Source: Smittium mucronatum (Eukaryota; Kickxellomycota; Harpellomycetes; Harpellales; Legeriomycetaceae). Taken from it: a stretch of DNA of 25,806 nt. The notes below the pieces were generated by a model, which had not been told where the DNA came from, did no database searches, and saw nothing but the letters and a program-made list of their open reading frames with translations. Both the position numbers and the translations under genes were made by a program. Below, in pieces: positions 4,724-25,806 of this stretch. The DNA lies in the NCBI GenBank assembly GCA_001953115.1, contig LSSL01000295.1:1-25806 (forward strand). Reading direction: 5' to 3'. The stretch's first letter is position 1, and each line of letters opens with the position of its first letter.

Positions 4724-4805
4724 CGTCAGCGGCAGGATTTGAACCTGCGCGGGCAGAGCCCAACAGATTTCGAATCTGTCTCCTTAACCACTCGGACACA
4801 CTGAC
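4724..4805 (-). tRNA. tRNA-Ser(CGA): tRNA-Ser, anticodon CGA
   Basis: This is an 82-base intronless class II tRNA. The 7-bp acceptor stem pairs GTCAGTG with CGCTGAC (one G-T pair), followed by discriminator G. The D stem is TCC/GGA around GAGTGGTTAA. The anticodon stem ACAGA/TCTGT encloses TTCGAAA, giving anticodon CGA (4770-4772 on the plus strand), which reads UCG serine codons. The long variable arm GGGC-TCT-GCCC is diagnostic of serine, and the T arm is GCAGG-TTCAAAT-CCTGC. The variable and T arms closely resemble those of fungal tRNA-Ser. CCA is not encoded, as expected in a eukaryote. All stems are intact, so it should be functional. Confidence 0.97.
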
Positions 4806-9076: not shown

Positions 9077-9087
9077 TTTTATAACAG
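9077..9087 (+). repeat. Target-site duplication, left side of retroposon copy 1
   Basis: TTTTATAACAG here is repeated as TTTTATAATAG at 9716-9726, on the other side of the element (10 of 11 bases). The repeat abuts the poly(T) run (the poly(A) tail on the other strand) on one side and the element's 5' end on the other, as expected for a retroposed insertion. Confidence 0.65.
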
Positions 9088-9715
9088 TTTTTTTTGTATC
9101 ACGGAATATTATCCTAAGATAACATCATTAAAAACTAATCTAAAATTTTCAAAAAATGAAAAGTGAAAATATTAAAGATCATTATTATAACCACAATAAA
9201 CTCTTTTTCCGAGCTACCAGCTGTGTAACTACTGGAAATGGGTAAAATCTACAAGCATAAAGACCCCCCCCCCATCTGCCATTGCTTCAAGCAGGCTATG
9301 ATTGAGGTTACATGAAGTCGTGAATTAAGCTCATTTTCAACAACAAAAAGTTCAATGAAACGATTAAGCTACTATTAGAGCCTACTTCTAACAGTGTTAA
9401 TAAAATTAGGCTTCTGACTAAACGTGGGATTGATGGACTAGTTATTCCTACAAATAGCTATCAGAAGTCGAGATCCGTCTGACTATCCAAAGATGGATTT
9501 TATGCAGAGAATTTCCAATAATGTTCATAGCTGTTCTGTTCCTTCTGTTTCGAGATTGTACTTCTCTGCAATCTCTGCCCTCTGATCACTGTATGCTGTC
9601 TCCACTACTCCCAAACAAGAATGTTACAAAACATTGTAAATTTTTAGTATAGTGTACTTCGAAAAGCACACTACTTAAGCCCCTAAAGCGCATCAAATTA
9701 TTCCACTCTTAAGGG
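9088..9715 (-). mobile_element. Non-coding poly(A) retroposon, copy 1
   Basis: This 628-bp copy is read on the minus strand, from CCCTTAAGAGTGG at 9715 leftward to a poly(A) tail seen as T8 at 9088-9095. It is flanked by an 11-bp imperfect target-site duplication. It aligns along its length with the copies at 10238, 18904 and 25241, and is the most diverged by eye: the AATAAA near the 3' end has become AATATT, and a C10 run (9264-9273) replaces mixed sequence found in the other copies. It keeps the stem at 9650-9673. No open frame is shared with the other copies. It is more G+C-rich than its flanks. It is an old, inactive insertion. Confidence 0.8.
9264..9273 (+). repeat. Homopolymer C10 inside retroposon copy 1
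   Basis: Ten C (G on the sense strand of the element) where the other copies have a mixed sequence around CTACCGACCACC. This is an expansion specific to this copy. Confidence 0.85.
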
Positions 9716-9726
9716 TTTTATAATAG
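9716..9726 (+). repeat. Target-site duplication, right side of retroposon copy 1
   Basis: TTTTATAATAG, the partner of 9077-9087, directly beside the element's 5' end. Confidence 0.65.
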
Positions 9727-10237
9727 ATATTTGAAATGAAATTTCTCTGGAAGAATCTCAAAAAATTTCCCAATTTAAACAAATTTATTAATTTAATATT
9801 AACTTTTTCGTCGCAGGTGGACCATTAAGTGTCATTTTCATGGCCAATATTTATATTGCTTTGTTTTTCGCTCAAAAAATTAACATTACGCGGGTTATAT
9901 CGTTGAAATTGGCAAATGTGTGTATTATAATTTAGCTAATCCAAGTGCTTAACACGCATGGAGACTAAAGAGTTGAATGAAAATTTAATGCGGATAGGGG
10001 TTTGTTGAGTATAGAAATTCGAGCTTCCTAAATTTTCAACCCCTATATAAAGACTTCCAAATTTACATTATAATTCTTTTCGCTCATTAAAGTTTCTTCA
10101 TACATTTAAATTGCTAAATTTCGGCATTTAATTGGCCTGAATGTTGCAAAGACAATTAAATTAAAGTTTATAGGCAAAAAATAGAAATAGCTTTCCAACC
10201 TTTTGGCTTAATACAGCTTTCCTTATCCTTTTTCATA
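9727..10237. other. Spacer between retroposon copies 1 and 2
   Basis: Single-copy sequence of ordinary composition. It includes a TATATAAAG at about 10045, but no gene follows it, so a promoter is not claimed. Confidence 0.5.
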
Positions 10238-11392
10238 TTTTTTGTAACACGGAATTTTATTGTAAGATAACGTCATTAAAAACCATACTAAAAATATATG
10301 AAAAAAAGAAAAAGGCTTATAGAAAAGACTATTGTTCTAGCTGCAATAAGTTCCTCTATCGGACTACTGGCTGCGTGCCTACTGGAAAAGGGTGCAATCT
10401 ACCGACCACCAAATAATACCCTGGCATTGCTTCAATTAGGTGTATTTCTGAGGCTACTTGAAGTTGAGAATTAAGCTCGTTGTCAATTAACAATAGTTCA
10501 TTGAAGCTACTGAGCTCCTATTCAGAGCCTAATTTTAACAGGATTAATAAAATTAGGCNNNNNNNNNNNNNNNNNNNNNNNNNNNNNNNNNNNNNNNNNN
10601 NNNNNNNNNNNNNNNNNNNNNNNNNNNNNNNNNNNNNNNNNNNNNNNNNNNNNNNNNNNNNNNNNNNNNNNNNNNNNNNNNNNNNNNNNNNNNNNNNNNN
10701 NNNNNNNNNNNNNNNNNNNNNNNNNNNNNNNNNNNNNNNNNNNNNNNNNNNNNNNNNNNNNNNNNNNNNNNNNNNNNNNNNNNNNNNNNNNNNNNNNNNN
10801 NNNNNNNNNNNNNNNNNNNNNNNNNNNNNNNNNNNNNNNNNNNNNNNNNNNNNNNNNNNNNNNNNNNNNNNNNNNNNNNNNNNNNNNNNNNNNNNNNNNN
10901 NNNNNNNNNNNNNNNNNNNNNNNNNNNNNNNNNNNNNNNNNNNNNNNNNNNNNNNNNNNNNNNNNNNNNNNNNNNNNNNNNNNNNNNNNNNNNNNNNNNN
11001 NNNNNNNNNNNNNNNNNNNNNNNNNNNNNNNNNNNNNNNNNNNNNNNNNNNNNNNNNNNNNNNNNNNNNNNNNNNNNNNNNNNNNNNNNNCCTACCCAAA
11101 CGTGGGTTTGATCGACATGGCTTTCCTACAAATAGCTGTAAGGCGCTGAGATCCGTCTGACTGTCGAACGCTGGACTTTTGAACTAGACTATGTCTCAGC
11201 TGTGCTAAACGATCGATTCCTCCTGTTTCGAGATATTCCTCCTCTGGAATAGCTGACCTCTGAATCGCTGTGCACTGTCTCCACTACTCCTAACCAACAA
11301 GAGTACAATCAGTGTGAAATTTTAGTTTAGTGTTCTTTGAAAAGTACGCTATTAAGCCTCTAAACCACGGGAAGGTATTCCACTGTTAGGTG
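10238..11392 (-). mobile_element. Non-coding poly(A) retroposon, copy 2, interrupted by an N gap
   Basis: Read on the minus strand from CACCTAACAGTGG at 11392 to a T6 (poly(A) on the sense strand) at 10238-10243. Subtracting the 532 N leaves 623 bp, matching the 626-628 bp of copies 1 and 3. It retains AATAAA (TTTATT at 10256-10261 on the plus strand) and an A-box-like TGGTTTAGAGG (11357-11367, reversed). The 20 bases on each side of the gap are the same as in copy 4, where they are separated by one base. The target-site duplication is unclear because both flanks are T-rich. It is non-coding and inactive-looking. Confidence 0.8.
10559..11090. other. Assembly gap, 532 N, inside retroposon copy 2
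   Basis: The left edge ends ...AATAAAATTAGGC and the right edge begins CCTACCCAAACG. In copies 3 and 4 these two strings are joined with a single T between them, so the sequence truly missing may be about one base and the N run a scaffolding estimate. Any reading frame drawn through it is meaningless. Confidence 0.9.
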
Positions 11393-12109
11393 ATTTCTTT
11401 TTTACGATTTGTATATTTTATTGGTGTAAATTTTTAAATTAAAATAGGAAAATTCCCATATTTCCTTTTTAAAGAGCCTTAGATTTTGTTTTCGTTAAAG
11501 AATTCTTTTTTCGAAATTATTTCAACTAAAAAATTAAATTTACACTTGAAGTTAGCGTTACAGTCTTTTTATAATAAATCCATGTTTAAAAAAAATTACT
11601 CAAAATTAGTCATTCTTTCATCTAATTGAAAATTCAATTGAATGAATGGGGATAAAAGTTTTATAATTTGTACCCAAGATTTAAATCTATTTTTGAAAGA
11701 ATTCTGCTTATCCAAATTTAAGGTTATTTTATTTCAACTATTTGAGATTTTCAATTAAAATTCAAAATCTGCTATATAAAGCCGTAAAGCGTTTTTAAAA
11801 AAATACCTTTTAAATTGGTATTATTATGCTTTTGCATTATCGATAACTGGAAAAAATATTAAACTAACCGAATAATGCCCAAATTCGAAAATATTTTATT
11901 CAGAGTTGATGATTTTTTAAAGTGCTTAATTATTATTATTATTTTATAAACAGCTGAGATGTGTTATAAATTTTTTTGAATTGATTTTATTTTATTTTTC
12001 ACATATCTTTTTTATATATTAGTGTATTGGAACATGTTAAAAATAGTCTAAAACAAAAAAAACGGTATTTTATAAATGTTGGAACATTCATTACAATTTT
12101 TTTATAAAG

Positions 12110-12322
12110 TTAAATCAGTTTAAAATTAACTTTAATTCTAACTAAAAACCTTTGAATACAAACACACTCATTTTTTTCATACGTTAATATTTTATCCTCT
12201 AATTTTCTTTTACAATAAAAATCAAATTTATCAATATTTATAATAACAGTAAAATAACTGTTTTTAAAAAAAATTATTGAACTTTCTAAATCTCTATGAA
12301 ATATTGAAAATTGAAATACCAA
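12110..12322 (-). pseudogene. Decayed protein kinase fragment (catalytic loop to activation segment)
   Basis: A 70-codon frame, opened by TTG rather than ATG, contains FHRDLESS (residues 8-15), matching the kinase catalytic loop HRDLKxxN, then FDFYCKRKLED (33-43), which lines up with the usual A-D-F-G-x-S-R-K-x-x-D, and ECVCIQRF (52-59), which lines up with the end of the activation segment (x-x-V-G-T-P-R-F). The loop Lys is Glu, the metal-binding Asn is Ile, and DFG is DFY, so it could not be active. The spacing from HRD to DF is about five residues longer than normal. The preceding frame reads like LSSLKIGIS, as in the helix before HRD, out of phase. It may be an old duplicate of a large kinase family. 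The match could still be fortuitous. Confidence 0.4.
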
Positions 12323-12497
12323 TTTTCAAGCTTGATAAATCTATTTTATTGCATAAGTTTCGATTTACCTAGTTTTAATATCGAAATGAATTCAATATTA
12401 TAAATACCAAATATAGGTAAAATGACTGTATTTTTAGAACATACAAATATAATGACCATTTTTTCAAATTTAAATTTAAAAATACATAAAAAGATAC

Positions 12498-12518
12498 TAT
12501 ATATATATATATATATAT
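12498..12518 (+). repeat. (TA)n microsatellite
   Basis: An uninterrupted TA run of about 21 bases. Similar but shorter runs occur near 16830 and 22360. Confidence 0.9.
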
Positions 12519-14422
12519 TATATACCCATATTCAGAAATCCATAATTATTTTTAAAAAATTAAATTAAATTTGGGTTTTCGATGAAAATTTTATCGAAAT
12601 TTTAGATTACATATTTTTTAAAAAAAACTTGGTGGGTTATAAAATTATGGTGTAAAATAACTTTTCAATAAAGTAATGAAAAATCATTGGAAAAACTTTT
12701 TTTTAATATTAATTATTATTCTGCGGATTAAACGCTAAAAATACTTAACAATTACTAGATAAGATTCCTAAAAATATATTTTGTAGAAAAATAAAATAGG
12801 TATTTAAGAAAATACACAATTGGAATTTTCGGAAGCCTGATATCCAAAAAATAACGCTAAATAGCATTTAAAGTTTTATATATTTAGTTTTGGATATAAT
12901 AATTTCTTTGTTATTATATTTAATACTATAATTAAACATAAGGTATGTTTTAAGATTTTCTACATTCCTGTTTGTTTTGGTGGCACATTTTCTCAGCCGT
13001 GCTGACCACAATATTTGATGATAATTTATTATTTATTAAAGCCTGGACTTTTAAAGTAATGATATCAATAAACCCCTATTAAATATCGAATTTTGTATCA
13101 CATAAATTAAAAAAGTGCTAAGTATATTTAATGCGTCAATAGTCTAAAGTATCGATAATGAAACTATTAGAGAAGGTGGATTTATAATTAAGTTATAAAT
13201 TATATCATAAATATTTGTTTTTGAATTTTATCCTTTTTGTTTTATATTTCACAAACCGTTTAAGTATTCTGGAAACATAAATATATTAAATATTTTATGC
13301 AGGTGTTAAAAATATTTTTATTCAGGGTCAGCAATTTATAAATATTTATAAATATTTAGATTTCTATTCGTATGTTTCTATGAGTTCAAGAAATTATAAT
13401 ACAAATGAATCTATATAATAAAAATTTAACTTTTATTACTTTTCATTTATAAATACCTTCAACAAGTATACTAATATAATTTGAATTTTTCAAAAGATGT
13501 GCTTTTTTAAGAATAAAAACAAAAAATTATATTTTTGGGCTTATATAATCATCAAATAATTTTTTTGAAAACACAAATGGAAGACTCTCTTAGAAAACCA
13601 CAAGATTTTTCGGAAAATATTTTTATTTTAAAAAATTTAGCAGTAATTGTGTACCTGAGATATATTTAATAGCAAGAATTTTTAAAAAAATAATTACTAA
13701 ATTTAGTAACTTTTTTATAGAAAATAACAACGTTAATTTATATTTTAAATTTAATAAGAGTTTTGAATGGAATTTAAAGCCAATTTAAATCGTAATTCTA
13801 ATTTAAAAAATCTATTTTGAAAATTTATTTATAGATTTATTTATTTTATTTTCATTAAAATTTAGAAAATAAGCGATAAATTTTAGAATTTATCGAAAAT
13901 ATATATCATTTTTTTTGAAAATTTACAAATATTTGTAATAGACCCCTTTTTTGAAATCTTAATCCCGAAAATTGAGGATAAGTCTTTGAATATGACATGA
14001 TACTTTTTTTAAAAAAAGATTAGTTTCTTTAAAATAAAAATAAAAATCATTTAAATGAAATAGTGTATACATAATTCAAATAAAGGTATTGTTTTAAAAC
14101 ATTAAAATAATAACCAGTAAAATTATTTAAATTATTGAATAACATAGAGGATATTTTATATCGATCTTTATTTATTAAATCAATTCGTAATTTCATTGAA
14201 AAATCAGTACGAAATAAATGATATTAATTGACCCATAAAAAGTTTATCTAAAAAAGTTTAGCAAGATTTCCGATTTATAACCATTAAAAATACTTCTATT
14301 TTATTTATCGATTAAAATTTTTGCGCTATTCCCAAAATAAAAAATCGGGCTTAAACAAAAATTTACAATATTATTTATCCTTTATTTCATTAGAATAATA
14401 TTTTTTAAATTTAAAACATCAA

Positions 14423-14450
14423 TACTGTTACTGTTACTGTTACTGCTACT
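14423..14450 (+). repeat. (TACTGT)n hexanucleotide repeat
   Basis: Four tandem units of TACTGT, the last ending in C, followed by TACT. It stands out in the surrounding A/T-only sequence. Confidence 0.85.
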
Positions 14451-17400
14451 ACATTTTATAATTAAAAACTATAAGAAGAAAAAAGCATAAAAATAAATTT
14501 AAAAATAAATTTACATAAATAATAAAATATTTTTTAAATTCCTCTATAAAATATTTTTAATGAAAAAAAGCAGTCGCGTGGCTCCCAAATGGAATTTCTT
14601 AAATTTAATAAAAATAAATATGTATATGAAAAAATGATTTTTTATACCGAGAAAAGAGCAGTATTATTTATTAAGTTGTTTAGTATTAGAATAAAATTTT
14701 ATTAGTATTTATTTATTTATCTCAGATTCGCTTGAAATTATTTGATATTAAGCTTATATTTTTTCGGCTGATTGAATAACTACTTCCTGAATTCCACACA
14801 ATTTGTGACTTGAATTATAAATTTAAATTTAATTGATAAATGGAGGTTAGATAAAAGAGTTGAAGAAACTCCCTGGTAAGATTTTTTGCATTTCTAATAA
14901 TTTTTTTGCCATAAGAAAAAAAATTAATACAAAAATTTAATATTTCTCAGTTTGAAAAATTCCCCTTTCTAATATTTGAGGAGATTAAAGATTTTAACTG
15001 CCCCAATTTTTTGGTTTAAATGATAATGAGCTAATTTTATAAAAACAAAGATAAAATATAGCTAAATTTGAAAAAAAAAAAATTCGATATTTTCTATGTA
15101 CGGATTAAACATGAATAACATATGAAAAAAAAGAGATAGAAATACCCAAAATACGATATTGAAAATTATGCTAAGAAAAAAAAATGAAGAAATTTAAATG
15201 TGAGAATGTTCATTCTATCGCTTTTTTGTGCACCTAATGAGGCAGATATATATTTTTTTCCATTCGGCTAGTGATATCTAGAAAAAAGGATAAACATTAT
15301 GTATATTTACCAAAATAAAAAACGTCAAATATAAAACTCACTATTTTTTTTTATTGAAGTAATTTTTTTAAACATAGTTTTTCTAGTTAATACTGACTTT
15401 AAAAAAAAAGTTGTAATTTTATTTTTTTGTTACCATAATAGAAAAAAATAAATGATTAGATATGTATTATTTTGAATTTTTTTTTAAAAAGAACATTTTA
15501 TAATCTTATAATCTTCAACAAACCAACAAATTATATTCACAATTAAAGATTCGTACACACATACATTTTATTATAGCAAGTTCAATATATGTTATTTTTT
15601 TACTTTCAGATTAAAAATCTTCAAGAAATATCCTATTATTATTGCTGTTTAAGAAGATGGATTTATAATATAGAAGTTTAAATATCCTTATAAACATAAA
15701 TATAATTTCTCTCAAATTTTGGTATTAAGTTAAGTAAATATGTACTTTTTAAAATTTGGTATTGTAAAATTTTCCGGAAACTTTAAAAATCATTACGAAA
15801 ATATCTTTCAATATGATATTAATCAAATAAATTTAGATTATATTGAATTTATAAATAATAAAATTTTTAAAAATATATTTTAACTTGTATAAATATTTAA
15901 AATAAAGGCTCTAAAATATTCTTGTATAATTAAAAAAATGTTTAGTTTTGTTGTAGCTATTTAACATAAAAAATATAAATAATTTAATGGAACTTTAAAA
16001 TTATATTTTATAGAATAAATCGTGGATCTAAAAGTGTTTTTAAATTTTAATTTTAATTTAAGAAGTAAAAATTTAAATTGTTTTTATTTTTAAATTAATT
16101 TTTCGGAATATCTTCATTTCCCAAATTTTTTCAAGAGTTTTTTTTTTCGTCTTCATGGCTAATAATTGATTTTCTTTTATTATAATTTTATAAATTAACT
16201 TAATATCGGTAGAAAATTTTGTTCTCGATAATTTTTTTTTTGAAAATTCATAAATACTAGTGCTTAGAATATATTGGAGACGAAAAATTCAAGCTATTTT
16301 GACATTCAAATTATTTTTATAAATTATTTTTGGGGAATAAAAATTAAAAATCAATCCCTCTGATAGTTTAAATTGTTATTTTTTTAAAAAATATAGGATT
16401 TTTTTGCGTGGTGAAATTTATATATGGAATTTTTCAAATTTTAGATATTAAAAATTTTAAATATTTATTATATTTTTACATAATAACAATCATGGAAATA
16501 TATACCTGTATTTTACATTTAATTGTGTCATCTATGCGGATTTATTCTTTTTTTTTGTTCATTTTTATCATATTTATTTTGGATCGTGTTTTCTATAGAT
16601 AAAATTAATGAATTTTCTAAACTTTTTATGTTAAAAAATCCTTTCTGTTTTAGAAAAATCATGGATAAAAAAAGTTAATTTTTTCGATATAATATTAACA
16701 TTAATTCTATTAAATCCCAATTATTTTATCAATATATTAATTTTTTTTCTATTTAAAAAATAGAATATAAAAGAAAAGAAATAATTTATATATTCTTAAA
16801 TTTTATTAATTTATTTAGTGATGAATATTACAATATATATATATATATGTATATGAGTATATACTAATAAATCTTATGAGGATATTTAAAAATATAATGC
16901 AACTTAATCCAATGAATTTATTAAATTTGAGAAAATTGCCTTTTTTAGGATATAGTTATTAATTCTCCAATAAAAATATCATTATTATAGAATAAGATAG
17001 ATTTTTAAATTATTGAAAATTTTATATGATTTTGTTTTCAATGGTAGGTTAAAGTGTTTTTATAATGATTATTATTTTTATAAAATCATTATTTGATAAT
17101 TGGAATATCTATTCGATAAGATTTACATAACAATATCCAAATGTAGAAATACATATTTTTTAAATATTCACATAGAGATAAAATCCGAAAAAAAAAGATA
17201 AATCCCTATTATAGCTTATAATAAAAGAAAAAATAGTTTTCATATCAATTTCTAATTTTTTTTTGAAAATAGAATAAATAAAGGGAAAATTAAAACTGGA
17301 AATATGACTTTTAATAGATTTTAGTACTAAAAAAAATTCTTTATATTAAGAATAAGAGTGTAAAATATTTTATAGATATTGGTATTTTTTAAAGTTTCTA

Positions 17401-18894
17401 ATAATAAAGTCTTTTATTTTAATTATTAAATGATGAATATAATATCTAATAATATTTTAAATATAAATTTTTTAAATTTGGATCTTGATTGAAATTTATT
17501 TTTAAAAAAATAGAAATAAATTCAAATATTTATTTAAAGAAAAAATAGAAAAACGATTATATTTTATAAATAATTAAAATTTCATAATTTTCTAATAAAA
17601 ATTATTGCAGCATGTTTATTTATGGGACTAAAAAACATTTTTCCTGTTAAATATTTTAATTCTGGTTTAATATGTGGTTTTTTATATGTATTTTAATGAA
17701 ATTTGATTTTTCCTCTTTTAAAATAACCACTAATAAATTTTTTATTTAAAATTATAGTTTACATTATCAAAATATTTCTATTTCGAAATAAATGATCGAT
17801 AGTGAAAAAAAATCAATAAAATCGGAAAATTTCAATATTATTTAATAATTAAGCATAAATTTATCTTAAAAATGTATAATAGGGATGTTTTCTACCTTCT
17901 TAATTATTTCCATATGATAGCTCAGATAAATTGAAAACTCTTTGCTGTTAATTAATAATAACCTTTCATTTTTTTTTGAATTATCAGTTTTAAAAACTAA
18001 TATTTTCAGTAATTGGTTGATTTATAAAAAATACTGAAGGAAAATATTATTTAAACCTTTATATTAAATTATAAGAATAACATTCGTTGAATAAAATATG
18101 ATATCATTTTTAATTTGATATTATATTATAAAAACATTTTTAATTCTTAATAGGATTCGATAATTCGTTATAAATATGATTTGAAGAAATAAAGGTATTT
18201 TTAAGTAAAATGAAAATAGTTTTGAATTTTTTTGCGAACCAAATAATAATTTATAGTGGTCGGGGTTTTATTTGGTTTGAGATGATTAATTGACGTATCT
18301 TTTAAAAAGCCACAAAATAATATAAAAAATCGCGAATTATATGATTTCTAATAATTTTGATTAGGGGTTTTTATTTTTAAATTCTGATTATATCTAATTT
18401 CCAATTTTATATATTGATTTCTTAATTAATGTAAGAAATATACTGTTTGTATATTCCCTTTGATATGAAGAACTTTACCATTAAAACATAAATGATTCTT
18501 AATACTTTAAATATTTTTCTACGATAAATAACAAATTTATTTAATAATGTGTAATTAGAATCGCAGAAGAAATCTTTTATTGGGAATTTATTATATCCAA
18601 TAAGTTTCTTCATTTATATTTGTGAGGCGATGGTTGAATTTCACCATAGAGAATAGTTTGAAAAGTAAAAAAGAACTAGCTTTCATAAAAATATACCAAT
18701 TATCGACTTTGATAACAAAAAATCATTTCCTCTTTTAATTGGTTTATCTTATTAAATTGAAAAATTAAATCATTTTAATTCCAGAAAATAATAATAATTA
18801 GTACTTTAAAAAAACGGAATATTAAATTAAAACCAATACTATTACTTAATGGGTCTATTTAATGCTTAATAAGACGTTAATCAATTAATGATTG

Positions 18895-18903
18895 GTTTTT
18901 TTA
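18895..18903 (+). repeat. Target-site duplication, left side of retroposon copy 3
   Basis: GTTTTTTTA directly before the element's first base, repeated at 19534-19542. It is low in complexity, so only moderately convincing on its own, but its position agrees with the boundaries deduced from copy 1. Confidence 0.5.
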
Positions 18904-19529
18904 CACTTAATAGTGAAATACCTTGCCGTTGTTTAGGGGCTTAATAGCGTAATTTTTGAGGTAAAATAAACTGATATTTCACACTGCGTTGTACTATTGT
19001 TGGTTAGGAGTAGTGGAGAAGTGCACAGCGATTCAGAGGACATCGATTTCAGAGGAGGAATATCTCGAAACAGGAGGAACCGATCGTTTATCACATCCGA
19101 GACATAGTCTAGTTCAAAATTCCAGCGTTAGACACTCAGACAGATTTCAACGTCTAACAGCTATTTGTAGGAAGGCCATGTCGATCAAACCCAAGTTTGG
19201 GTAGGAGCCTAATTTTATTAATTCTGTCAGAAGTAAGTTCTGACTAGGAGCTCAGTAGCTTCAATCAACTATTGTTCATTTACAGCGAGCTTAATTCTCA
19301 ACTTCAAGTAAACTCAGTCATACACCTAATTGAAGAAATGCCAGGAGGGATCTTTCGGTTGGTAGATTAAATCCTTTTCACACAGGTACACGGCAGTTAG
19401 TCCGATAAAGGAACTTATTGCAGTTAAAAAAATAGTCTTTTCTATACGTCTTTTTCTTTTTTTCATATATTTTTGTTATAGTTTTTAATGACTTTATCTT
19501 GCAATAAAATTACGTGATACAAAAAAAAA
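18904..19529 (+). mobile_element. Non-coding poly(A) retroposon, copy 3 (complete)
   Basis: A complete copy on the plus strand: it starts CACTTAATAGTGAAATACC and ends with AATAAA (19503-19508), then ATTACGTGATAC, then A9 (19521-19529). A 9-bp direct repeat GTTTTTTTA lies at 18895-18903 and again four bases beyond the A run. G+C is roughly double that of the surrounding DNA. A 71-codon frame at 18989-19204 lies inside but is broken in copy 4 by an indel and stops, so the element appears non-coding. The AATAAA plus tail shows that the source RNA was polyadenylated. The 5' hairpin seen in copy 4 has decayed here (GTAATTTTTGAGGTAAA), suggesting this copy is not a recent insertion. Confidence 0.8.
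19503..19508 (+). promoter_or_regulatory. Polyadenylation signal of the retroposon
   Basis: AATAAA ending 12 bases before the A9 tail of copy 3, and conserved in copy 2. The spacing is right for cleavage and polyadenylation of an RNA polymerase II transcript, although some RNA polymerase III SINEs also use AATAAA. Confidence 0.65.
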
Positions 19530-19533
19530 GTGT

Positions 19534-19542
19534 GTTTTTTTA
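19534..19542 (+). repeat. Target-site duplication, right side of retroposon copy 3
   Basis: GTTTTTTTA, the partner of 18895-18903, separated from the A tail by GTGT. Confidence 0.5.
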
Positions 19543-20525
19543 GAAAAGATCCATTATACTTGATTTTTAATAAAATGAGAAGGCAAAATATGATCTTTTT
19601 CAAAATTATGGTTATCTTATTTCAATGGTATTACTATTACCTAATTAGCTCGTTGTTAAATAAAAAACTGGAGTGTATAATTTTTTTATGACTTAATTGG
19701 TCACAGCACTACAAAATTTACTTTATTGAGGATCAATACCAATATATTATGTTTAATGATAAAATTTATAATAAATTTTATCGACTCGTAGCTCTAAATT
19801 TAATTGATATTTTTGAGCCAATTTAAATATCTTTTAAAAATTGAATAATTGAATAATGATGAAATATTAGTAAAACCAAAAAAAAAATGAAGCAATTCAA
19901 AATGATTTTCCTGGAAAAAATTCGAATTTATTGAAAATAATCCATCATATCTCTTAAAACTAATAAAAAATTCACATTAATACTAAATTTTTATAAATTT
20001 AAACAAAAGATTGGTTTGGAATATATTTTATGGTGCAAGTTCTTGGGTAATATATCTAATACATTTATTAATACTAAAAATTCACTTGAATTCAATAATA
20101 AGTAAAGCACTAGTCTCAATAAATCAAACAAATAAATGTAAAATCGATAAAGTAAAGTTGAGTTGATAATAAAATGAAATATATTAATGCCAATGATAGC
20201 AATATTTCATGTCTTGAAAAAAATTTTAAGCTGATTTTCAGCATTTTTTTTTCTTATTTTATATGCATAAAAAATTGATATTAAAAAAAGAAAAAATAAT
20301 TTAGTACGATAAATTTTAGAGATACTTATAAATATAATTTTTTAACGAGTTTTTTAATTACTTTAATTTTTTAAAAAAACTTTAGATTTTCAATATATTT
20401 TTATTATTTCGGTACAAATAATTTAAAAAAAAATCACTGTATATTTTCGGATTTTTTGTTGGCTGATTAAGATTTTAGTGATAATAATATTATAATATTA
20501 TTAAAATAGCATATAAAAAAATATT
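19543..20525. other. AT-rich spacer
   Basis: No gene or repeat was seen. Confidence 0.6.
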
Positions 20526-20996
20526 ATGTTTAAAAAAAAGGCTTTAAAACTGCCAACACCTATTAAAGCATGTTTTTATCAACATTTAGAAAAAACTACA
20601 TATATTGAAGTCTTTAGTTGTTTTTGTTTTTTTGAAGTTTTTTCTAAGATAAATTTTATTGGATATTTATTAGCGGATTCGGAATTTAAAATTCCACTAG
20701 ATTTAGGTTATTATATTGATAGATAAATTATTAATCATAAAAAAATACAATTTGTGAAAAAATAAAAGAATAGAGTTATATATAATTACACAATAATGTA
20801 TTTTTTAAAAAACGATGCTATATATACGCAAAGTTTTAAGGTATTTATCACTTTTGGGTCATTAAAACAGAAAATTAAGAAAATTAATTCGTTTAAAATT
20901 AGGTTTAAAGTGATCTCCGCTATTGCATTTTATCAAAATATTGGTCTAATATCAATAAATGATATTCATTTATATCTCGGACATGTTATTTCATAG
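20526..20996 (+). pseudogene. Stop-interrupted coding relic, possibly Sel1-like
   Basis: Two ATG-started 66-codon frames (20526-20726 and 20796-20996) are in the same reading frame, separated only by two TAA codons (20724 and 20763) and otherwise readable, so together they form a 156-codon frame with two internal stops. Amino acid composition is less biased than in chance frames here (LPTPIKACFYQHLEK, LLADSEFKIPLDLGYYID, ISAIAFYQNIGLISINDI). The pattern of small residues followed by D-L-G-Y-Y, and later Y-L-G-H, recalls Sel1-type helical repeats, in which an LG pair recurs every 36-44 residues, but the spacing is irregular and the call is weak. Other possibilities are an unidentified pseudogene, or exons with an undetected intron. 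Confidence 0.35.
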
Positions 20997-21784
20997 ATTT
21001 TTTTAAAAATATATACAAGTAAAAAATATATATACCTATTTTCTTAAAAAAGTCATAGGGGATTTTTATCTTTGAAAAAATATATAATTTAATAACGCGA
21101 AAGACGTTATACTTAATATATTTTAAAATTTAAAACTAAAGATGTTACTTCTTTTCGAGATTGTAGTATTGAAATAACTGCGAGACTATAAAATAGGCCC
21201 ATGTTATTTACCTTAAGTTTTTCTACATGAGAAAAAAAAATTAAAAAATAACTAATTTATTATAAATAATATTCTATAATAACTGTTTGATGTTATTTAA
21301 CTGTTTAATTGAGAATATTAACAAATAAATATCCGCTTAGATCTTTTTTTTATTTTTTAAAAGTAATTCAATAAAAAATATTATGTTTTTAAACAAAAAT
21401 TTTATCTTTTTTTACTAAATAACTGAAATTAAAATAAATGTTTAATTATTGTTCTTTTTAAAATTTAAACTAAATCCAGAATAAAATCGGATTTTTTAAA
21501 AGTGGCGTTTTTTTATTTGTAAAACAAAATATATTCTATTATAAAAACAAATTATAAGGGTTTATAAATCAATTTTTTAAATTAACAAATATCCTTAAAT
21601 TCGATTTTTTTTTAATGTACGAAAAATCAATCTTATAAAGGCGATCATATTATATTGGATAACAATAATAATTAATAAAAATTTGATTCAAGTAGAATTA
21701 TGGAAGTATAAGTATATGATCAAATTTTATTGGAAAAAATAAAAAAACGCTCTCTTTAATGTGCTTAGATAATGAGAAGGGTAA
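20997..21784. other. AT-rich spacer
   Basis: No gene or repeat was seen. Confidence 0.6.
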
Positions 21785-22213
21785 AGAAACAAATCTACAA
21801 CTCAAATATTACCTAAAGACGTATTAATAATAATTAAAATTTCGAAAATTTATACTCTGGATGTTTTGGGCCAAAAAAAGAATCGAAACCGAAAACAATT
21901 TTTTTTTTATAATAATAATTTTCTTAAGAGGTTATGAATTCTAGAAGAAAAAACATCTTGTTAAAAGCATTAAGCTCAATGATTTTTTTTTGTTATTCGG
22001 ATATTAAAGGGGGTGAGATCGAATTTTTTTTAGAGAGAAATCAATTATAAAAAAGTCTCAAGGTTATGAAAAATGTTTAAAATTTTTTATTATGATTTTT
22101 ACCCGGGAATGTAAAGTTACCATGGTCTTTGGAGATTAGCCCAAGGTGAATCTTTTTTTAAAATGCTTTATTCTTTTACATCTTCAGCCTTTCAAAGAAA
22201 AAGAATCTATTGA
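21785..22213 (+). pseudogene. Weak coding relic, possibly F-box-like at its start
   Basis: A frame without ATG, 21785-21937 (50 codons), includes TTQILPKDVLIIIKIS, which resembles the start of an F-box (L-P-x-D-V-L-x-x-I). After an AT-rich interruption another open segment, 22115-22213, has SYHGLWRLAQGESFFKML. The region from 21950 to 22150 is noticeably richer in G and C than its flanks. The two parts are in different frames, and no full domain can be traced. Treat this as a decayed gene candidate only. Confidence 0.2.
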
Positions 22214-22337
22214 ATCGGTCATTTTTTTTAGTTTTTTATAATAAATATATCCCCACGGTTAAATCTATTCGTCAATTACTAGATAACATAAATTTTGGTG
22301 AAATAAATATGGAAGAATAAGTATTATATGTATATTG

Positions 22338-22406
22338 CTGTTATTGCTGTGAATCATTATTATATATATATATATATTACTGTTATTGCTGTGAATCATC
22401 ATTATA
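22338..22406 (+). repeat. Local duplication of a 27-bp unit around a (TA)n run
   Basis: CTGTTATTGCTGTGAATCAT plus seven further bases occurs at 22338-22364 and again at 22380-22406, with one difference and a period of 42 bp. A TA run lies between them. Confidence 0.8.
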
Positions 22407-23569
22407 AGAGGTCTCTTCATTAATAACTTAAAAAGATCATTAATATAATCCGAATATGTAAATATTTATACATGATGGCACGATTCGCTTTCAGAACACT
22501 AAAATAGTATCCAAGGAACGAGAAGTGTATCTATTAAATTTCAGCTATCACATCTTTAAAATTTAACCTGGTATTTTAGATGATTAGAAAATAAAAATTT
22601 TCTACAAAAATTTCTCTTATAGAATACAAATATAACCAGACAATATTAATCCCAAAAGATAATATAAAATTAAAATAACCATTTTATTTAAATTCTATTG
22701 TAAGTTATATATCCTATCTCCAGAACTCAAAAGATTGAACTTCTAGGTTCTAAGATAGGTCTCAATGAGCACCTTGTAATTATTATTTATAAAATTGATT
22801 ATATAGAATAAAATTATTAACATCCTTCATTCCCTATTACAAATATTAATTTCTTCATATTTTTTATCTTCAGTTCATTAAAACCTCACTTTTTTTTTAC
22901 CATAAAATTTGCTCAATAAAGAAAATATCACAAATTTATCTAGTTTAATCTATTAAATGTTCAAATACACATCAATATAGAAAAAATGGCAATTTCATTC
23001 TTAAGTGTATTTTTAATATATTTTCCTTTTAATTCCTAATTTTATTAAATATGAATAATAAAGACTCAAACCCAATTTTATTTTTTGATAATTGTGTCTC
23101 ATAATCAATCATTCAAGTATATTTTAAGTTTAAAAATAAATTATGCGAAAAAAAATAAAATCAAGTATATTTTAACATCTTTTTCGTGTAATATTTAACA
23201 TATATTTTATGGAATATATATTGGCTTGATCTTTATTTTTTAAGAATAATGTTCTGCAATCTTTGATTATTAATGTTTTTTTAGCTCTATTTCGGAGATT
23301 TTATTAAGTTAGTAAATATAAATAATTGATGACATTTCTAAAAACCCAAAAAATACATTGTGCAGTGGATTTTTTCATAATTGTGGTAAGTTTTCAGGAT
23401 AAAACCTAGATATTGTATAAAACCGATTTTTTTAAATAATCACATAGTATTTGATAAATTTTGAAGAACTAGAATAGCTCAAAGTTATATTTTTATATAT
23501 CCTATATGGTAATATTCCCCACAGTGTGCCCTCCAAATAGGATGATACGTTATTAACATATATATTTAG
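22407..23569. other. Spacer with one weak open segment
   Basis: No gene is called. A plus-strand frame from 22601 to about 22735 reads fairly protein-like (ISLIEYKYNQTILIPKDN) with one TAA inside, but it has no start codon and no recognisable motif. Confidence 0.4.
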
Positions 23570-24035
23570 AAAACTCCCAATGATATCTATCCTCCTCCGC
23601 TAATAGACGAACATTTTTTTATAACTCCTAACTTTTATACTGGTTTTACTGAATTTCGAATAATCAAAAGTATAAAAAGATTAAACCTTTCTCTATCGCA
23701 AACTATTCAAAAAAGAGTAGAAAGCCAAAAAACAACGCATAAATGCAACTATTTTTTTAGCTGGATTGGATATAACTATAATCAGGTATGATAAAAGAAA
23801 CACTCTGATGTTATAAAAATGATTTGATTTTTTTCCTCTTTCATAATTGGGTTATATATTTTAGATCGAAATCTAATAGTTTTTTTGCCATTCTAGGTTT
23901 ATCTGTAAACCCCATCAGAAAATGAAAAAAAAACATTTAACTTTACTGCTTCATACAAGTTTATGGAGCCGAAGAAAAGATGACCCTGAACTCCAATTTA
24001 AACCTCAAACTACTACAGCAGATTTTTTTATTTAA
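23570..24035 (+). CDS. Unidentified gene fragment: two exon-like segments
   Basis: Segment 1 (23570-23785, 72 codons) follows a TTTAG and ends at CAG|GTATGA, which would serve as acceptor and donor sites. It reads IYPPPLIDEHFFITPNF, then TEFRIIKSIKRLNLSLSQTI and HKCNYFFSWIGY, very unlike chance AT-rich translation. Segment 2 (23880-24035, 51 codons to TAA) contains FICKPHQKMKKKHL and LWSRRKDDPELQFKPQ. Joining 23785 to 23880 keeps phase 0 with a 94-bp GT...AG intron, although the better-looking acceptor TTCTAG at 23896 would put the frame out. No start exon was found, and neither segment has an early ATG. I do not recognise the family. Cys and His residues around the junction could bind metal. 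It is either an intron-containing gene missing its first exon or a pseudogene. Confidence 0.4.
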
Positions 24036-25240
24036 TAAGTCCAAATATAAAAGCAATTCAATATACAGACTTTTTTAAAAAAATTATTCGATCTTTTGTT
24101 TTGTTAAAGCACATTAAATTTTGATTGGAACTGTTTTAAAAATTGCCAAGCGATTTTTAGCTCAAAGCTAGGGGGGGGGGGTTGCGGCAGACAAAATAAG
24201 GATAGAAAAAATGATATTGATATTAAAATGATAATTATATTAGCAACATTTTAAAAATAATCTAAAAGGAATGCTGTATAAATCCTCATTTTTTTAACAA
24301 AAACTTGGCAGTTATGATTTATGTGCATAAAAAATTAGATTTTTTTTCTCAGTCATTGATGATATGTTCTAATAGGGTTTATAAAAAACCTCAAAGTTTG
24401 GAAATATCATATAAAACTGACTTGATACCACAAAAGAAAAAATCCAATAAAAAAAATCTATAATTTTGACTAGTAGTTGGGTTGATTAGAATATATTTTA
24501 GCTCAAAGTAACCAAGTAGAGTACAAGCAATGGTATCTTTTCTTGTAAAACCCCAGAGATCAAACTTCAACAGATGGGCTATGTCGGGTATCTGGAAACG
24601 GGAAAGAAATAAAATGCTTAAGCATTCAACCATTGTTTCTCCTTAGTCTCTTAATTATCTTTGGCATTATAAGAGCCAATAAAAATATATTTTGGGTTTA
24701 ATATAGATTTGAAATATCCACAAAAACATCGATTTTTAAGGATAAACCGTTTCTAAATGGTTTCTGCGATTAAAAAGATAATGTTCTCTCGGTTGATTGA
24801 ATGGGTATTATCTCAAAATCAACATTATGTTGTATTTTATATAAGCTTAAAGGCTTTATATTTATTTTCATCATTTATATTTCACTTCAGAAGAGAAAGA
24901 AGATATTGCTTTATGTTTATGACCTTGATTTTTTTATAATATTGTAAAAATATATCATATTTTTTAAAAAAGCTTTAAAATAATGTGCGTAGCTTGGTTT
25001 AATACTTCGCGTGATGGAATTCAAATCAAACTCATATTTTAATTAGTTAAAAGTTCGCTTTGAAATTGAATCCATAGTTTTTCCAATTTTTTAACGGCAA
25101 ATTGAAAATTATAAGTTTCATAAATAGGGGATCGATATATTCTTGGGCCCTGATAGAAAACATTTAAGGTAAGAAAGCTAAAAATTCTTTTTACTGTTGA
25201 AATTAACTAGCTACTATTAGGTGTCTACTATGTATACAGG
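24036..25240. other. Spacer with two weak ORFs
   Basis: A minus-strand 80-codon frame (24391-24633, MVECLSILFLSRFQIPDIAHLL) and a plus-strand 60-codon frame (24757-24939, MVSAIKKIMFSRLIEWVLSQ) have some non-random composition but no domain. In the first case the opposite strand also has open protein-like stretches, so strand and reality are undecided. I would not annotate either as a gene without expression evidence. Confidence 0.35.
24171..24181 (+). repeat. Homopolymer G11
   Basis: Eleven consecutive G, the longest G run in the window, followed by TTGCGGCAG. Confidence 0.9.
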
Positions 25241-25281
25241 CCCCTAAGAGTGAAATACCTTGCCGTGGTTTAGGGGCTTAA

Positions 25282-25305
25282 TAGTGTACTTTTCGAAGTA
25301 CACTA
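25282..25305 (+). other. Perfect hairpin with TTCG tetraloop in the retroposon
   Basis: TAGTGTACTT pairs with AAGTACACTA around the loop TTCG. In copy 1 the sense strand is TAGTGTGCTT-TTCG-AAGTACACTA (9650-9673 reversed), where one A-U pair has become G-U, so pairing is kept. Copies 2 and 3 are degraded. Confidence 0.75.
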
Positions 25306-25320
25306 GACTAAAATTTCACG

Positions 25321-25406
25321 CAGCGTTGTACTATTTTTAGTTGGAAGTAGTGGAGACAGCGCACAGCGTTGCACTATTCTTGGTTGGGAGTAGTGGAGAT
25401 AGTGCA
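25321..25406 (+). repeat. 43-bp tandem duplication inside retroposon copy 4
   Basis: CAGCGTTGTACTATT... at 25321-25363 is followed directly by a second 43-base unit starting CAGCGTTGCACTATT at 25364-25406, with a few differences. Copies 2 and 3 have one unit. Confidence 0.85.
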
Positions 25407-25641
25407 CAGCGATTCGGAAGACAGCGATTCCAGAGGAGGACCATCTAGAAACAGGAGGAACCGATCGTTTAGCACAGCTGAGACATAGTCTAGTGCACAA
25501 GTCCAGCGTTCGACAGTCAGACGGATCTCAGCGTCTAACAGCTATTTGTAGGAAAGCCATGTCGATCAAACCCACGTTTGGGTAGGAGCCTAATTTTATT
25601 AATCCTGTTAGAAGTAGGCTCTGACTAGGAGCTCAATAGCT

Positions 25642-25663
25642 TCAATGAACAACAGTTCATTGA
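25642..25663 (+). other. Second hairpin of the retroposon
   Basis: TCAATGAAC (25642-25650), loop AACA, GTTCATTGA (25655-25663), a perfect 9-bp stem. Copies 2 and 3 keep the fold with one or two mismatches and a different loop (TATT). Confidence 0.65.
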
Positions 25664-25806
25664 CAAAGAGCTTAATTCATGACTGCACGTAACCTCAGTC
25701 ATCCAGCCTACTTGAAGCAATGCCAGGGTATTATTTGGTGGTTGGTAGATTGAACCCTTTTCCCGTAGGTACGCAGCCGGTAGTCCGGCAGAGGAGCTTA
25801 TTGTAG

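Follow-up and report, generated by a model that had tools for sequence, protein, structure and literature searches.

A short interspersed retroposon family in the gut fungus Smittium mucronatum with a putative hepatitis delta virus-like ribozyme at its 5' end

How does a repeat that encodes no protein come to be copied, and what sets the ends of the RNA from which it is copied? The question is raised by a 25,806-bp stretch of DNA (contig LSSL01000295.1, the whole of which is called the window here) from the harpellalean insect-gut fungus Smittium mucronatum, in which self-comparison finds four collinear non-coding repeat copies, two per strand. An earlier reading of this DNA from its letters alone, the original prediction, had claimed the same four copies, and base-by-base reading confirms them as well. 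It had taken the repeat for an element resembling a short interspersed nuclear element (SINE), retroposed by the machinery of a long interspersed nuclear element (LINE). The interpretation we favor, with a probability of roughly 0.8, is that of a non-autonomous SINE of about 619 nt, probably without a promoter, whose RNA a ribozyme would free and a poly(A) signal would terminate, with a LINE doing the copying. The first 79 bases resemble a self-cleaving RNA of the type known from hepatitis delta virus (HDV), a putative ribozyme that would trim the element's own 5' end and so spare it the need for its own promoter.

Searches of the 73.8 Mb Smittium mucronatum assembly place the window copies in a wider family. 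With copy 3 (Table 1) as the query, at least 41 matches were found in the genome (the best 40 of 2320 first-look candidates being scored), and the first 85 bases as query gave at least 40 (the best 40 of 1315). From the fetched loci and the window together, 71 distinct copies or fragments were collected, of which 34 are full length. Identity to the consensus is 77-98%, and 30 of the 34 full copies lie at 92-98%. The consensus element, about 619 bp plus an A tail, begins with CCCCTAAG and ends in AATAAAATTCCGTGATAC(A)n. It has stops in all six frames and no long reading frame, in agreement with the earlier claim that the copies share none, and its translations in two of the six frames, with stops masked, have no Pfam match. 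Additional copies or fragments occur at 7 per 127 kb of SINE flanks versus 0 per 100 kb of loci fetched around reverse transcriptase (RT) matches, counts that probably put the genome copy number, itself uncertain, in the order of 10^3. In 23 of the 30 loci L061-L090 a copy reaches the end of the stretch, as is expected if the repeat breaks the assembly. The published assembly of the species is described, in the part of the paper used here, as having 102.35 Mb, a G+C content of 26.05%, and a repeat ratio of 2.94%, and neither "transpos" nor "ribozyme" occurs in the main text of that paper (PMC5954228); the 73.8 Mb searched would be either one portion of that assembly or a different version. Two sequences, in loci L022 and L016, were considered as subfamilies and rejected, each being a single copy.

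Target-site duplications (TSDs) were sought by a fixed rule, with a threshold score of at least 10, in the 32 copies that have both ends and flanks, and flanks re-paired between copies served as the control. Fifteen of the 32 reach the threshold, with duplications of 10-16 bp and variable sequence, and none does in the re-paired flanks. The duplication abuts the first base of the element, C1, directly in 14 of these 15 copies; one extra G stands between in the remaining copy. A tail of at least 6 A directly follows the element end in 27 of the 32 copies, and AATAAA begins at position 602 of 619, 18 bases before the consensus end. The 17 copies below the threshold comprise all four with less than 90% identity, window copies 1 and 3 among them, and 13 younger ones. 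As judged from these sequence marks, movement by target-primed reverse transcription, and hence the class of a LINE-mobilized SINE-like retroposon, is well supported. The original prediction had proposed retroposition by LINE machinery, and the variable duplications and A tails bear it out; it had named a lack of A tails in most copies as one contrary sign, and most copies keep the tail.

Bases 1-79 of the consensus read CCCCTAA GA GTGAAAT ACC TTGCCGT GGT TTAGGGG CTTAA TAGTGTACTT TTCG AAGTACACTA GACTAAA ATTTCAC, and can be read as helices P1 (7 bp), P2 (7 bp), P3 (3 bp, flush with P1) and P4 (10 bp). These would form a nested double pseudoknot, with P1, P2, P3, and P4 in HDV order and spacing, in the consensus and in 41 of the 63 copies with a 5' end. 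The joining strand J4/2 reads C-U-A-A, which fits the HDV pattern of a catalytic C followed by N-R-A. In loop L3, U20 (the first base) and G25 bear the same numbers as their counterparts in the genomic ribozyme of HDV. P1 opens with a C-G pair, typical of 230 fungal HDV variants according to the portion of a survey consulted here (PMC5640933). The strongest independent support for a ribozyme is that the genomic 5' junction falls exactly at the cleavage point predicted by the fold.

A descriptor of the fold matches the consensus at base 1 only. It finds 41 matches in 293,672 bases of loci, all inside SINE copies and one per copy, whereas shuffled loci give none, nor do 500 shuffles of the consensus (plus strand). 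In random sequence of equal G+C, 107 matches occurred in 478.35 Mb (2.2e-7 per base), so that a match at base 1 would arise by chance about twice in 10 million. The matches divide into 30 of the 30 copies from loci L061-L090, which had been fetched with the 5' ribozyme stretch itself, 10 of the 29 from loci L001-L030, and one of the four in the window. Among the 33 copies not fetched by the 5' stretch, the C of J4/2 is kept in 32, U20 in 32, G25 in 30, and the A78-equivalent in all 33; the base that follows the presumed catalytic C varies. Counts over all 83 copies, 50 of which were fetched by likeness to the 5' stretch, are 81, 82, 79, and 83 in the same order. For the R2 ribozymes, the sections drawn on here report that change of the catalytic C (silkmoth) and change of the L3 G (wasp) each abolished detectable cleavage (PMC3774820). 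One Smittium copy, in L009, has an A at the presumed catalytic position of J4/2; if the ribozyme model is right, this copy would be a natural inactive variant.

The copying enzyme would have to come from elsewhere in the genome, where a search for RT gave at least 151 matches (the best 150 of 605 candidates being scored). A candidate LINE family is represented by L041, L043, L055, and L060, with L047 more distant; the consensus of 20 fetched 3' ends of this family ends in AAATTAGTTTTTATAACTTTTTATTAACTTTAAAATAAATTTCCCGT(A)n. Aligned to the end of the SINE, the LINE tail has in common with it TTTTTTTA...TAGTTTTT...AATAAA.TTC. This similarity has p 0.0025 by 2000 shuffles and 0.001 by comparison with 3726 genomic 66-mers, 4 of them scoring as high or higher, both values having been computed after the LINE tails had been seen and an earlier comparison having shown no clear signal. 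The match suggests, but does not prove, a 3' tail shared between the SINE and this LINE family. Other RT loci include long open frames from other LINE families: that in L059 has 1002 aa, matching RVT_1 and, weakly, an endonuclease, and that in L039 has 1246 aa. Within about 1.3 kb of one LINE copy lies a host gene (L113) with a long serine/glutamate-rich repeat region after what we read as a signal-like N terminus.

A number of points weigh against a ribozyme-freed, LINE-copied element. The descriptor was composed after the fold had been seen, and in its strict form it is satisfied by 11 of the 33 copies not fetched by the 5' stretch, namely the 10 from the loci and the one from the window. 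Compensatory double changes number 5, four of them at one pair; shuffles average 3.4, and 244 of 1000 reach 5, in a family whose copies may mostly be offspring of a few sources. Covariation was rejected as proof of a ribozyme, being not above shuffles even with 20 further 5' ends; these had been chosen by likeness to the two double-change copies, a choice that tends to inflate the count. A conserved core may also stem from a few source genes. In P1.1, a single G22-C37 pair is possible, in reverse orientation (G22 in 59 and C37 in 62 of 63 copies), and L3 is one base shorter than its counterpart in the HDV genomic ribozyme. In predicted folding, the first 110 nt alone prefer another structure; P1, P3, and P4 do form when 90 nt, 130 nt, or the entire element is folded, and the whole consensus fold is mildly stable (z -1.7, with none of 20 shuffles as stable). 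The Rfam HDV models give no HDV-family match up to E 10, which is weak evidence because most known HDV-like members were found by structure-only search, as stated in the portion of the survey consulted (PMC5640933). On the side of the LINE, the tail of L060 alone gives a modest match (p 0.014-0.035), and of two stretches upstream of LINE copies one is mostly N and one is a host gene, so the LINE 5' end was not reached.

All Rfam matches at E up to 10 are to miRNA, snRNA, and lncRNA models and lie far below the cut-offs; two inside the element, mir-981 (L013) and mir-305 (on the P4 hairpin), we take as chance. The suggestion of a constrained structured RNA holds in a sense that the original prediction had not envisaged, the 5' end being readable as an HDV-like ribozyme. 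A known source RNA was not found in Rfam.

An ordinary SINE transcribed by RNA polymerase III, with 5' hairpins that are no ribozyme, would account for the SINE-like size and A tail, and the consensus does contain loose A-box-like (3) and B-box-like matches. Against it, TTTT runs at position 50, at 311, and beyond would terminate that polymerase, and it leaves to chance a fold at base 1 whose rate is about 2e-7 per base; moreover, Rfam and ARAGORN find no tRNA in the window outside 4724-4805, and the copy-bearing loci (10 of 30 scanned) have no tRNA, 5S, or 7SL match. We consider it quite improbable. A head derived from tRNA, 5S, or 7SL was rejected, since the element itself has no match and the box-like words are loose only. 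From this lack of relation and the TTTT runs from position 50 onward, we infer co-transcription by RNA polymerase II rather than III. The tRNA gene of the window, a tRNA-Ser (anticodon CGA) on the minus strand at 4724-4805, is its sole match at Rfam gathering thresholds and its sole ARAGORN gene. A SINE or retroposed mRNA-like RNA made by RNA polymerase II could instead have its transcription start at the 5' end, the structured head serving for binding or as a promoter; AATAAA plus the A tail would suit such an origin, and Pr77 of trypanosomatids is both promoter and ribozyme (PMC4035085). Such a start would sit poorly with a 5' end at exactly C1 in 14 of the 15 duplication-bearing copies, the other having its one extra G, and with a kept HDV-type core (C, U, G, CNAA), and we judge it unlikely.

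It is conceivable, if doubtful, that the element is a SIDE, an internally deleted derivative of a LINE that had the HDV-like ribozyme at its own 5' end and passed it on, in the way that NARTc relates to L1Tc. Trypanosomatids supply the precedent (PMC4035085), and the SINE 3' tail resembles that of a local LINE; however, at E <= 1e-3 neither the SINE consensus nor either of its ends is matched in the 30 RT loci, and the two stretches upstream of LINE copies, mostly N or host gene, give no significant match. To a solo long terminal repeat (LTR) of a gag-pol element, for which a length of about 600 bp and multiple copies might speak, we give almost no credence: variable 10-16 bp duplications, where an LTR element would leave a fixed length, and A tails in 27 of 32 copies contradict such an origin. 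Terminal repeats around gag-pol were the other contrary sign named by the original prediction; SINE copies number 0 in the 30 loci anchored on an RT, within the roughly 1.5 kb on which these loci extend from it.

Under the ribozyme-based interpretation, the element would be transcribed as part of longer RNAs made by RNA polymerase II. The putative ribozyme would cut just 5' of C1 and so fix the 5' end of the RNA, the built-in poly(A) signal would fix the 3' end, and a LINE protein would copy the product by target-primed reverse transcription. The probable partner is the local family of L041, L043, L055, and L060, with its 3' tail similar to that of the SINE.

The window copies are listed in Table 1. 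The earlier claim of A tails stands, at 6-9 bases in copies 1-3. That of a G+C content roughly double that of the host DNA stands for copy 4 and the 5' half of copy 2 only, the copies having 36-46% versus 23% in the rest of the window. The duplications proposed at copies 1 and 3 are present in the sequence, but both are under the strict threshold, copy 1 scoring 8 and copy 3 lower because its repeat is mostly T; proof of duplications therefore rests on the other genomic copies. The halves of copy 2, which correspond to consensus 305-619 and 3-303 and are thus nearly contiguous, belong to a single interrupted element. A run of 532 N separates the two sides although they are adjacent in the consensus (303, 305); probably the gap size is wrong, or a tandem duplication is hidden there. 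Just 3' of the putative ribozyme of copy 4, at 25322-25407, lies a 43-nt tandem duplication, which an exact word test detects in 12 of the 63 copies that have a 5' end and which may mark a subfamily.

Table 1. Positions and state of the SINE copies and their parts in the window
Feature	Position	Strand	Remarks
SINE copy 1	9096..9715	-	77% to consensus, old; C1 at 9715; A tail 9088-9095
Copy 1, putative ribozyme region	about 9636-9715	-	strict descriptor failed; P2 and P3 changed
Copy 1, probable TSD	3' side 9077..9087; 5' side 9716-9726		11 bp, 1 mismatch
SINE copy 2	10244..11392	-	N gap 10559-11090 inside; C1 at 11392; A tail 10238-10243
Copy 2, putative ribozyme			strict descriptor failed; P1 changed
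SINE copy 3	18904..19520	+	87% to consensus; A tail 19521-19529
Copy 3, putative ribozyme			strict descriptor failed; P1 and P4 changed
Copy 3, possible TSD	5' side 18895..18903; 3' side 19534-19542		GTTTTTTTA, 9 bp, low complexity
Copy 3, 3' end	19503..19520	+	AATAAA poly(A) signal 19503-19508, then ATTACGTGATAC, then A tail
SINE copy 4	25241..25806	+	5' part of element; cut by contig end
Copy 4, putative HDV-like ribozyme	25241..25319	+	all helices intact
Copy 4, P1 and P2	P1 25241-25247/25270-25276; P2 25250-25256/25313-25319		
Copy 4, P3 and P4	P3 25257-25259/25267-25269; P4 25282-25291/25296-25305		presumed catalytic C 25308

Known systems share parts of this architecture. SINE-like elements with HDV ribozymes exist in trypanosomatids (PMC4035085), where NARTc, RIME, and SIDER (Pr77 with L1TcRz) derive from a LINE that shares their 5' end, in a different host; there Pr77 is also a promoter. 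The R2 ribozyme and R2-derived non-autonomous elements, in the sections of the two studies used here, likewise have a 5' HDV-like fold through which the RNA is released from a co-transcript (PMC3774820, PMC3414825), but R2 is site-specific in 28S rDNA, whereas the flanks of the Smittium SINE vary by copy and its duplications are variable. Fungal HDV variants (Penicillium, Aspergillus, and others) have in common with it the C-G at the cleavage site and a fungal host, and differ, as far as the consulted portion of the survey describes them, in that their P4 contains an E-loop and an additional base separates P2 from P3; the word retrotransposon occurs 0 times in the survey's main text (PMC5640933). 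The P4 of the Smittium SINE, unlike theirs, is a simple hairpin of 10 bp capped by a TTCG loop. Metazoan non-LTR retrozymes are non-coding, carry a self-cleaving ribozyme, and have been termed a possible SINE family, but their ribozymes are hammerheads, in tandem repeats and with circular RNAs, according to the passages drawn on here (PMC7761336); the Smittium SINE has just one HDV-like motif and ends in an A tail. Since HDV-ribozyme SINE-like elements in trypanosomatids and HDV ribozymes in fungi were already known, the element adds to a known kind.

With confidence a little above even, we regard the family as a fungal SINE of the order of 10^3 copies that has no promoter of its own, relies on HDV-like 5' release, a poly(A)-signal end, and LINE copying, has a body from neither a LINE nor a known small RNA, and would be the first such family reported in fungi as far as the literature was searched; among the open papers on Smittium, Harpellales, or fungal ribozyme SINEs, none on this family was found. 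SINEs are usually explained by internal RNA polymerase III promoters. If the interpretation is true, a ribozyme-made 5' end would be a testable second route for high-copy SINEs, outside the trypanosomatids, and a self-made 5' end would account for insertions that all but invariably begin at the same base. Smittium species are amenable to culture, and a culturable host with so many full copies near the consensus would provide material with which to ask whether ribozyme activity predicts copying success.

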